Made by a program: the position numbers and the translations under genes
In this document: positions 8,186 through 59,822 of the stretch, in pieces
How the letters are laid out: each line of letters begins with the position of its first letter
Position numbering within the stretch: position 1 is the stretch's first letter
The notes under the pieces: generated by a model
The model's database searches: none
What the model saw: only the letters and a program-made list of their open reading frames with translations
What the model was told of the DNA's origin: nothing
NCBI RefSeq assembly: GCF_024171735.1
Contig: NZ_JAMTCH010000003.1
Coordinates: 1,166,841-1,230,840 of the forward strand
Origin: Prauserella alba
GTDB lineage: Bacteria > Actinomycetota > Actinomycetes > Mycobacteriales > Pseudonocardiaceae
DNA: 64,000 nt
Reading direction: 5' to 3'

Positions 8186-9265
8186 GTGCCGAGCATCGTC
8201 CGCCCGATGGGATTCGCGTTGGCCGTGGCCGCCGCCCTCGCCGCCGCCGATGTCGCTTCCGCGTTGGGTGGCAGGCCCGGCCCGTACCGCGGGTCGCCGC
8301 AGTTCCGGGACGGTGCCTTCCGCAATCCCGAACCGGTGCGCTGGGTGCCGCCGGGAAGCGTGCGCGAAGCGGTCGGCGACATGGTCCGTGGCCGCCGCCG
8401 GCGTCGCCCCGCCGGTCCGGTGCCGCAGCGGCGGCTGGCGGGCGCCGCGCCCGCGGACGGGCTGTACGTGACGTGGTTCGGCCACGCGTCGACGCTCGTG
8501 GAACTCGACGGCGTGCGGGTGCTGATCGATCCGATGTGGAGCGACCGCGCCTCGCCGTCGCGCGTCATCGGCCCCCGCCGGCTCTTCGCCCCGCTGCAGG
8601 AACTGGCCGAGCTGCCCGCCCCCGACGTGGTCGTCGTGTCCCACGACCACTACGACCACCTGGACATGCGCACCGTCGGGCTCCTCGCGAGCCGGACCGC
8701 CGCTGCGTTCGTCGTTCCCCTCGGCGTGGGTGCCCACCTGCGCCGGTGGGGCGTGGCGGCCGACCGGATCACCGAACTCGACTGGCACGACGAGACATGC
8801 CTCGGCGGCCTCCGGATCACCGCCACGCCCGGGCTGCACTTCTCGGGAAGGGCGGTCGCGCGGAACAACACCCTGTGGGCGTCCTGGGTGCTGGCCGGTG
8901 ACCGGCACCGCGTGTTCTACAGCGGAGACACCGGCTACTTCGACGGTTTCACCCGCATCGGCGCAGACCACGGCCCGTTCGATGCGACCCTCATGCAGCT
9001 GGGCGCCTACGCGCCGAGCTGGCCGGACGTGCACATGACCCCCGAGGAGGCGGTGGCCGCGCACGTCGACGTCGGCGGCGGACTGCTCGTGCCCGTCCAC
9101 TGGGGCACGTTCGACCTCGGCCCGCACGGCTGGGCCGACCCCGTCGACCGGGCGCGCAAGGAGGCGGCTGCCCTGGGCGTCGCGCTCACGGTGCCGAAAC
9201 CGGGGGAGCGGGTCGACGTCGCGGCCCCGCCCGAGTTCGACCCGTGGTGGGAACCCCTCGCCTGA
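8186..9265 (+). CDS. MBL-fold metal-dependent hydrolase (UlaG / NAPE-PLD-like)
   Basis: 359 residues from a GTG at 8186 with GAGGAG 7 bases upstream (an in-frame ATG at 8207 is the alternative). The N-terminus PMGFALAVAAALAAADVASA could be a membrane anchor. Metallo-beta-lactamase motifs: TWFGHASTLVEL, VLIDPMWSDRASPSR, VSHDHYDHLDM (HxHxDH), GLHFSGR, FYSGDTGYF, LMQLGAY and PVHWGTFDLG. The family is related to NAPE-hydrolysing phospholipase D and bacterial RomA-like proteins, so a phospholipid or N-acyl substrate is plausible but unproven. The ECF-type promoter upstream suggests envelope- or thiol-stress control. Confidence 0.88.
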   Translation: MPSIVRPMGFALAVAAALAAADVASALGGRPGPYRGSPQFRDGAFRNPEPVRWVPPGSVREAVGDMVRGRRRRRPAGPVPQRRLAGAAPADGLYVTWFGHASTLVELDGVRVLIDPMWSDRASPSRVIGPRRLFAPLQELAELPAPDVVVVSHDHYDHLDMRTVGLLASRTAAAFVVPLGVGAHLRRWGVAADRITELDWHDETCLGGLRITATPGLHFSGRAVARNNTLWASWVLAGDRHRVFYSGDTGYFDGFTRIGADHGPFDATLMQLGAYAPSWPDVHMTPEEAVAAHVDVGGGLLVPVHWGTFDLGPHGWADPVDRARKEAAALGVALTVPKPGERVDVAAPPEFDPWWEPLA

Positions 9266-30600: not shown

Positions 30601-30857
30601 CTCCATCGGAGCCGCACTAGGCTTCGTTCGGACACGCGAGCCGGCACAGCACCGGCCTGCGCGGTCCGGAACACACTTACAGAGAGTTTTCGCAGGCGAT
30701 ACGCGCCGCGTGTGGGGACGCCGCAGCCGGTCCTCGGTAGTGGCTCCCGGGAGTTCCTCCCGTGGGCTTCGATCGATGGCCGGCCTCGTACCCGGACGGG
30801 CCCCGAAGGGCGGGGAAGTGCGTGTCGCGTGCGGCAGTACGAGGAGTAGTTACTTTC
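30601..30857 (+). promoter_or_regulatory. pnp promoter and structured leader (candidate Actino-pnp RNA)
   Basis: There is no gene in this stretch. TAGGCT at 30618-30623 is a -10 candidate, giving a ~230-base leader. Within it CTCCCGGGAG (30744-30753) is a palindrome, and CCTCGTAC (30784-30791) pairs with GTACGAGG (30837-30844), whose end overlaps the GAGGAG Shine-Dalgarno (30841-30846). A conserved RNA called Actino-pnp is known upstream of actinobacterial pnp; membership is inferred from position, not from a covariance match. Confidence 0.45.
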
Positions 30858-59450: not shown

Positions 59451-59527
59451 GGCTGTTCATGGTGCCGTACGTGCGCTCGGGCCGCCCGCGCCGGGCCGCC
59501 GGGAGCGGCGCAGCGCACACCGCACGG

Positions 59528-59576
59528 GGACACAACGGCGCGGACACACAACGGCGCGCGGACACACAACGGCGCG
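59528..59576. repeat. Three GGACACACAACGGCGCG direct repeats
   Basis: GGACACAACGGCGC at 59528, GGACACACAACGGCGCGC at 59542 and GGACACACAACGGCGCGG at 59560: offsets 14 and 18. They are followed by an A-run and GGGGAAACCCCC near 59585-59602. No coding potential on either strand. Confidence 0.75.
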
Positions 59577-59721
59577 GCCTGGACAAAAAAGGGGAAACCC
59601 CCGACGCGACTCCCGGACGTCGTCAGCCGTCCGGGCCCGTGGTGGACCGGTCCTCGGGAGCGTCGGGGGCCGGTGACCGCCTGGTATTCGCTGGGCGGCA
59701 CGCGGTGGTCCGCATACCGTC

Positions 59722-59760
59722 CTAGCGGACGGCCACCTCACGAGTCCTGTAGTTCTTCAC
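59722..59760 (-). CDS. 12-codon ORF with complete anti-16S Shine-Dalgarno
   Basis: GTG to TAG on the minus strand, encoding MKNYRTREVAVR. AGAAAGGAGGTG (59769-59780 complement) is complementary to essentially the whole 3' tail of 16S rRNA, 10 bases before the GTG. A well-formed promoter lies just upstream. The end of the ORF and the bases after it can fold: GGTGGCCGTCCGC against GCGGACCACC. Downstream on the same strand, ~270 bases on, is pyrD, so it may be a leader peptide or an independent micro-transcript. I do not recognise it. Confidence 0.5.
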   Translation of the reverse strand: MKNYRTREVAVR

Positions 59761-59792
59761 TGTCGGACCACCTCCTTTCTCGTGTACCCGCC

Positions 59793-59822
59793 ACGCTAGG
59801 CGCGCGCGCCCGCGGTCGGCAA
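59793..59822 (-). promoter_or_regulatory. Promoter for the 12-codon ORF (TTGCCG-N18-TAGCGT)
   Basis: On the minus strand TTGCCG (59817-59822) and TAGCGT (59793-59798) are 18 bases apart, a good housekeeping-sigma match. Transcription would start near 59786, a ~25-base leader. Confidence 0.6.

Follow-up and report, generated by a model that had tools for sequence, protein, structure and literature searches.

The 12-codon reading frame that stands before pyrD in this window (the whole 64-kb stretch of DNA analysed here) is part of an RNA family that is already catalogued, Rfam RF02471 (Ms_IGR-5), an “Actinobacteria sRNA”. Comparison of homologous loci shows complementarity between an extended Shine-Dalgarno sequence (SD1) and the 16S rRNA tail, a short ORF, two helices (P1 and P3), a regular spacing between a second SD (SD2) and the stop codon, and no constant tie to pyrD, all as judged from sequence. 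The element may be a free-standing small RNA that captures, or “parks”, ribosomes and is opened by the 16S tail, a reading we hold to be evenly balanced between right and wrong. The anatomy is well supported, and the cellular role is one that we infer from it.

An Rfam search of the 64-kb window gave a full-length match to RF02471 on the minus strand at 59785-59589, spanning model positions 1-184 of 184 and scoring 87.8 bits against a curated cut-off of 45 bits. The whole RNA element is placed at 59585-59785 on the minus strand on the basis of this match, with putative transcript start and end points. On re-reading, all of the minus-strand parts that the initial annotation had named were found at 59822-59722: a promoter with a −35 element TTGCCG (59822-59817), an 18-nt spacer and a −10 element TAGCGT (59798-59793); the SD sequence AGAAAGGAGGTG, located within a 16-nt block at 59780-59765; and an ORF that starts with GTG (59760-59758), runs for 12 codons (VKNYRTREVAVR, with the start read as M) and closes with a TAG ending at 59722. 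Two further RNA features were seen elsewhere in the window, an Actino-pnp RNA (RF01688, 69.7 bits) at 30726-30784 on the plus strand and a tRNA-Ala(ggc) call at 8401-8497 on the same strand, which at 97 bases is long for a tRNA-Ala and may be questionable.

Two sets of homologs were compared. Set 1 consists of 141 loci, 81 from searches and 60 picked from different families, with 121 loci from within the class and 20 from outside it. Set 2 consists of at least 119 stretches from named genome contigs, collected with a pattern that fixes GAAAGGAGGTGGTCC and GGAGGTG and neither the start nor the stop codon; the titles of the 80 listed out of 119 are mostly Acidimicrobiia, Thermoleophilia and other actinobacterial bins. 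Promoters could be compared in 119 of the 121 class-level homologs of set 1, two with short flanks having been dropped. All 119 have TANNNT at the −10 place, at the same distance as in the window, and 97 of them have T[T/A]G at a spacing of 17-18 nt, versus 0.4 after shuffling. Outside the class, the full promoter pattern was found in none of 20 homologs and TANNNT alone in 10 of the 20. The element is more than a chance arrangement, because it scores 87.8 bits against a cut-off of 45, contains the single 16-nt SD block of its kind in the genome, and has a promoter of a pattern that recurs among the class-level homologs.

The family is widespread. At E up to 0.001, the Rfam model matched 79 of 100 genomes sampled from the family, 212 of 249 from the order, 249 of 394 from the class and 70 of 396 from the phylum, 35 of the last being above the cut-off; these genome-wide searches used strict filters, by which weak matches are lost. 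A model-free pattern, consisting of SD1, SD2 and a stop at a set distance, matched 243 of 394 class genomes (reversed control, 3 of 394), and a looser version matched 136 of 396 in the phylum, in part evidently by chance (reversed control, 21 of 396). The initial annotation would have been refuted, by its own terms, had conservation ended at the species; instead, homologs extend across the order, the class and the phylum. Positive genomes carry one copy, as does the draft genome of the window itself (5.6 Mb, 11 contigs), and among the genomes listed, G618, G770 and G986 carry two. No match was found in any sampled genome of the families we label f9, f111 and f117, and the RNA is therefore dispensable. 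In one genus of the window's own family (g274), none of the seven listed genomes has a match. The groups with no match (g274, f9, f111 and f117) could be lineage losses, suitable for comparison with their relatives. An origin in a mobile element was considered and rejected, as no phage record was matched and the single record from a plasmid collection is a 2.66-Mb replicon of Nocardia farcinica. None of 17 pattern matches in viral contigs looked like the element by eye, most being repeats of GGAGGTGG-like units.

IGR-5 presumably originates from a screen for sRNAs in Mycobacterium smegmatis that made use of Hfq from Escherichia coli. A screen of this kind is described in a section of PMC4109619. 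An Ms_IGR-5 transcript in M. smegmatis is reported in a passage of PMC10454040, RNA-seq support in Streptomyces lividans in one of PMC8079986, and an Ms_IGR-5 transcription unit in S. avermitilis in one of PMC8780764. Homologs in M. abscessus and M. smegmatis yielded ribosome-protected reads, according to part of a profiling paper (PMC4974804), which also warns there that noncoding RNAs commonly give footprints. The literature found on Ms_IGR-5, all of it other than the original M. smegmatis paper, describes no ORF, 16S-tail match, SD2 or mechanism. A search of an M. smegmatis ribosome-profiling paper (PMC4633059) for the terms IGR, sRNA and MSMEG_5794 matched only its reference list.

The most striking part of the element is SD1 (AGAAAGGAGGTGGTCC, 59765-59780, minus strand), which complements the 16-nt 16S tail GGAUCACCUCCUUUCU with one G-U pair. 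The predicted duplex has an energy of −27.8 kcal/mol in the window, and the mean for the 141 homologs is −27.3. Pairing is possible along the full 16 nt in 130 of the 141 homologs and at 15 of 16 positions in the other 11, which makes it a new and well-supported finding, at the level of predicted pairing, that SD1 is able to pair with the whole free 16S tail in most homologs. SD1 was anchored by script at GG[A/G]GGTG (positions 6-12), which is present in all 141 loci. Of the 1269 letters that the nine free positions contribute, all but 11 preserve standard or G-U pairing: position 2, opposite a C, is G in all 141; positions 1, 3, 4, 5 and 13, opposite U, are A or G with 11 exceptions, nine of them at position 1 and a single one at each of positions 3 and 13; position 14, opposite A, is U in 141; and positions 15 and 16, opposite G, are C or U. 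The homologs came from a model that contains the SD1 block, which biases its presence, while the preference for substitutions that preserve pairing is not built in; the GUCC of SD1 is additionally constrained by P2 (see below).

A check of genomes for the sequence of the 16S tail located it in 13 of 15, at 1-6 copies each, and in both loci scanned it forms the end of the SSU rRNA; it was not found in the window's own draft assembly or in the other two of the 15. The degenerate SD 16-mer RGRRRGGAGGTGRTYY occurs once in the 5.6-Mb draft genome. Among window 16-mers containing GGAGG, AGGAG or GAGGT, SD1 is the strongest pairer with the anti-SD. The best-case SDs of 47 putative window genes, taken from a gene list made by rough ORF choice, reach −19.5 kcal/mol at the strongest, with a median of −12.2. 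Part of an earlier study (PMC5303271) associates the highest translation efficiency with anti-SD pairing of intermediate strength and indicates that the strongest pairing may lower it.

Downstream of SD1 lies the ORF, which with its stop occupies 59722-59760, and near the end of this is SD2 (GAGGTGG, 59733-59739), from which the stop is separated by 9 nt, counted from the end of GAGGTG. Among the homologs, an in-frame start and stop are retained beyond chance, as befits a translated short ORF. An ORF of 12-14 codons is kept in 129 of the 141 loci of set 1, and an in-frame stop stands exactly five codons past the start of the GAG in 139 (TAG in 117, TGA in 18, TAA in 4). Between +5 and +12 after the GGTG of SD1, an NTG is found in frame 0 in 130 loci, in frame 1 in seven and in frame 2 in three; the restriction to this interval was made because an earlier, unrestricted start-codon control was uninformative, the GTG of CGTGAGG being counted in frame 1 in 127 of 141 loci. 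The distance from start to GAG is 21 nt in 114 loci, 24 in eight, 27 in seven and 18 in one, so that 21, 24 or 27 nt account for 129 of 141, and the distance from SD1 to the GAG takes 12 values between 22 and 38. The start is TTG in 79 loci, ATG in 34 and GTG in 18, one of which (L139) is spurious; ten lack all three, and several of these have ATT, ATC or CTG instead, by eye.

Set 2, which is independent of set 1, gives a similar picture. A start, and a stop 4-14 nt after SD2, are present in 113 of 119 stretches and in 5 of 200 shuffled controls, and six of the 119 pattern-picked stretches have no such ORF. When NTG was taken first and ATT, ATC or CTG otherwise, the starts were TTG in 34, CTG in 33, ATG in 22, GTG in 14, ATC in nine and ATT in one. 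Within the 4-14 nt allowed, the distance from SD2 to the stop is 9 nt in 100 of 100 stretches read in frame 0, 8 nt in seven of eight read in frame 1 (11 nt in the eighth) and 7 nt in five of five read in frame 2, of which four are nearly identical. A second SD thus stands 7-9 nt ahead of the stop in 112 of 119, across three reading frames. The frame fixes this distance modulo 3 and does not fix the choice of 9 over 6 or 12. Since the stop spacing is alike in three frames, it is the distance from SD2 to the stop that is conserved, and not the frame or the peptide.

The initial annotation had offered a new micropeptide as one of its options, in which case a conserved product, M-x-x-x-R/W-T-R/C-E-V-A-A/V-R, would be what the RNA is for. 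This now looks very unlikely. Thr is found at codon 6 in 96 of 97 distinct 12-codon ORFs despite a free third position, and Glu and Val are invariant, though the alignment of the ORFs was itself anchored on GAGGTG. The conserved residues, however, are encoded by the bases that form P2, P1 and SD2. Variation affects every position of codons 2-4 and mainly the first position of codons 5, 7 and 12, and lineages that read the motif in a shifted frame give unrelated peptides. Conservation of amino acids with freer third positions, the mark of a conserved micropeptide, is seen at codon 6 alone. The finding that an ORF of 12-14 codons is conserved while its peptide seems not to be is new and well supported by these comparisons.

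The ORF also bears on the view that Ms_IGR-5 is an ordinary base-pairing sRNA, in which the ORF and SD would be incidental or merely stabilise the RNA. We consider this unlikely. The presumed origin of the family in the Hfq-based screen of M. smegmatis would suit an sRNA; yet the 16-nt complementarity is maintained via wobble-type changes, the length changes in-frame, and the stop keeps a fixed spacing in three frames.

The RNA is predicted to fold into five stems. P1 is formed by CACGAG (59779-59784) and CTCGTG (59739-59744, in codons 6-8), all coordinates here being on the minus strand. P2 pairs the 3' end of SD1, GTCC (59765-59768), with GGAC (59744-59747, in codons 5-6), at predicted pair probabilities of 0.99-1.0 in the window; the first C of the 3' arm of P1 is pairable in either P1 or P2. 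Of 260 sequences, 235 have a P1 helix of at least 4 bp, whatever its register, and 25 do not; the many compensating forms include CACGAG/CTCGTG, CACA/TGTG, CCAG/CTGG, CTTC/GAAG and CGTA/TACG. In 89 distinct arm pairs, the covariation score is 11.33 versus 8.57 for swapped arms (sd 0.24, maximum of 300 swaps 9.29). A covarying 5' hairpin, P1, that encloses SD1 is thus a new and well-supported feature of the predicted structure. Rfam's consensus helix, between GGUGGU of SD1 and codons 10-11, was set aside, as the SD1 strand hardly varies and therefore cannot show covariation.

P1 and P2 both appear in the fold of 59785-59672. In the full-length fold, 59793-59565, SD1 pairs with the U-rich 3' tail and displaces P1, but this was not taken to be general because the U-run, a U6 at 59585-59590, is missing from four same-genus relatives. 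In predicted ensembles of the isolated 5' domain, P1 is above threshold in 88 of 141 homologs and the SD core is unpaired with an average probability of 0.63.

Further along, P3 is predicted to join GGTGGCCGTC (59728-59737), which overlaps SD2, to GGCGGTCACC (59672-59681), an anti-SD-like strand, with pair probabilities of 0.99-1.0 in the ensemble of 59793-59565. It corresponds to GGTGGCTGNCC, containing SD2, paired with a strand that ends in CAGTCACC. The two arms covary: with 141 loci reduced to 90 distinct pairs, the score is 20.14 versus 17.09 for swapped arms (sd 0.31, maximum of 200 swaps 18.07). An earlier test, in which a loose box search missed 33 of the 141 loci, had given a weak signal (6.83 versus 6.64, sd 0.057). 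The pairing of a second SD before the stop with an internal anti-SD-like strand is likewise new and, as a predicted helix, well supported. Within P3 lies a predicted hairpin, P4 (CGGTATGCGG/CCGCGTGCCG, 59696-59719), in a region that varies among homologs, and beyond P3 the predicted P5, a long, GC-rich and terminator-like stem (59596-59671), precedes the U6.

The initial annotation had drawn its 3' hairpin differently, between GGTGGCCGTCCGC and GCGGACCACC. These can be drawn as a fold, but the first four pairs have a probability of about 0 in the ensemble of 59793-59565; GCGGACCACC is kept in all four same-genus relatives fetched. In the same-genus locus L285, a C to T change in the 3' arm of P3 is matched by a G to A, a compensation that falls in P3 instead of the fold drawn. 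Of the translated micro-transcript that had been proposed, the promoter, the exceptional SD, the ORF and a 3' structure thus stand, and the particular 3' fold does not.

P3 also lends itself to another reading, by which the RNA would be a regulator gated by translation: reading of the micro-ORF would open P3 and free the conserved GAAUNCCNGGCAGUCACC to pair with mRNAs or bind a protein, the ORF being the sensor and the output acting in trans. This is possible, and we regard it as distinctly less than probable. It agrees with the covariation of P3, with the resemblance of its 3' strand to the 16S anti-SD, with an AAU..ACC box found in 108 of 141 homologs by a loose search, and with the lack of a constant neighbour gene among the 141 loci. 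The 3' half of GAAUNCCNGGCAGUCACC, however, is constrained by P3, so its conservation requires no target.

The neighbourhood bears on the third role that had been suggested, that of a leader or attenuator of pyrD. In the window, the gene downstream of the element is pyrD, a quinone-dependent dihydroorotate dehydrogenase scoring over cut-off, and upstream are an endonuclease VIII-like gene and a ParA-like gene, both under their equivalog cut-offs. Repeated GGACACACAACGGCGCG-like units are visible by eye at 59520-59580, between the end of the RNA and pyrD. The arrangement recurs in this and some related genera, with pyrD downstream in 6 of 141 homologs (up to 1.5 kb), all in the window's own family, and in the same direction in four of four further same-genus relatives. 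Against this, pyrD is not seen in 135 of 141 loci within up to 1.5 kb (some loci being shortened by contig ends), and a terminator-like stem stands before pyrD. The neighbours are diverse: 261 proteins from the 141 loci fall into 141 clusters, the largest with 30 upstream genes, including those of mycobacteria, as chosen by a crude neighbour picker that in the window mistook an antisense frame of 487 aa for the upstream gene. An upstream position conserved with respect to pyrD is therefore not found, and pyrD leader as a general role is highly improbable. In M. smegmatis, pyrD is, we assume, MSMEG_4198. IGR-5 overlaps ncMSMEG15794c in that species, according to a passage of PMC10454040, and the latter is near MSMEG_5794, to judge by its number.

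Of the three roles offered at the outset, a ribosome-trapping RNA is the best fit to a maximal SD1, an ORF kept without its peptide and an SD2 before the stop. In this mechanism, the element would be transcribed from its own promoter into an RNA of about 200 nt, the 5' end of which would fold as a hairpin of P1 and P2, leaving the SD core GAAAGGAGGUG in an open bulge and the start codon within a closed loop. Pairing of the free 16S rRNA 3' tail would begin at the bulge and then extend across P2, which is possible because GUCC pairs with either the GGAC of the RNA or the GGAU of 16S. Since the last four bases of SD1 are common to P2 and to the 16S pairing, a fully paired tail would have to open P2 and the start loop. 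The opening of P2 would expose the start codon, making the element a natural toehold triggered by the 16S tail.

The ribosome would then translate about 12 codons. At the stop, SD2 would lie 7-9 nt behind, where the 16S tail could pair again, provided that P3, in which the anti-SD-like strand holds SD2, is open. At termination the last sense codon would be in the P site, with SD2 ending a short way upstream, in a position similar to that of SD1 relative to the start codon. The need for P2 to open under full pairing and the geometry of SD2 and the P site follow from the sequence, and the ribosome would presumably dwell there. A maximal SD, frequent non-AUG starts and an SD near the stop may together keep a ribosome at its start codon, its stop codon or both, with the peptide itself being irrelevant. 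Later profiling, covered in a section of a review (PMC7829197), finds no general pausing at SD-like sequences within ORFs, and for this reason SD2 might instead retain the ribosome after termination. The invasion of P2 by the tail and the parking of ribosomes are putative, as is the role, which would be to titrate ribosomes or to sense free mature 30S subunits; titration would require the RNA to be abundant. Several of the results above weigh against this reading: the frequency of footprints on noncoding RNAs, the prediction of P1 in just 88 of 141 isolated 5' domains and its displacement in the full-length fold, the 25 sequences with no 4-bp P1, the six stretches of set 2 with no such ORF and the ten homologs with no ATG, GTG or TTG start, the dispensability of the RNA, and the genomes in which the 16S tail was not found.

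The RNA is nearly always single-copy, has been reported from streptomycetes and mycobacteria, and is without a described function in the literature found. If it does park or count ribosomes, it would represent a new coupling of cell state to ribosome supply. Even otherwise, a family filed as an sRNA appears to be translated and to have a conserved layout with two SDs. More tentatively, and on balance somewhat improbably, it may be the best-conserved case of a hitherto unrecognised group of RNAs for which the ribosome is the ligand, with a natural toehold that the complete 16S tail opens, a minimal ORF with an irrelevant peptide and an SD that holds the ribosome at the stop codon; in Actinomycetota such RNAs would gauge or buffer free 30S subunits, and similarly built counterparts would exist in sequences with the labels Planctomycetota, Gemmatimonadaceae and Truepera, and perhaps in CC2171 of Caulobacter.

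Pattern matches bearing the titles of other phyla include Planctomycetota (L186, L204 and L215), Gemmatimonadaceae (L207), Truepera (L173) and Candidatus Eisenbacteria (L212). The titles given to metagenome bins are in some cases open to doubt, since L213 (Chlamydiae by title) has the same sequence in the printed match as L166 (Actinobacteria by title). The extended SD, the short ORF and an SD2 near the stop are retained in L207, L186 and L215, and a 4-bp P1 is missing in L186 and L207. L186 (4409-4456) is nearly identical to L185, L204 and L248, all having an extended SD, the ORF MIVRGSIRRWVR and an SD 7 nt ahead of the stop, in the third reading frame; the titles of L186 and L204 are Planctomycetota/Planctomycetia. 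In L207 (4147-4189), an extended SD is followed by a 12-codon ORF starting with GTG and a second SD 8 nt before the stop. These matches could reflect either convergence on the same plan or distant kinship.

Rfam files RF02471 as “Gene; sRNA”; the helices for which covariation was detected here are P1 and P3. CC2171, a Caulobacter sRNA (RF01867), likewise carries an extended SD, GAAAGGAGGUGAUCC, at its 5' end. Its model was matched in a control genome of Caulobacter vibrioides; the window scores 15.9 bits against its cut-off of 75, and the window's own genome has no match at E up to 0.001. CC2171 could be an analogue of the window RNA, judging by the extended complement to the 16S tail that its consensus carries as well, and does not appear to be the same family. 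Leader peptides encoded by uORFs, and attenuators such as the WhiB7 leader, also consist of a short translated ORF in a structured RNA, but the family described here has neither a constant downstream gene nor a conserved peptide. In synthetic toehold switches, an open toehold allows strand invasion and the release of a hidden start codon. The plan of the Ms_IGR-5 RNA is alike, but here the trigger of the putative invasion would be the ribosome's own 16S tail.
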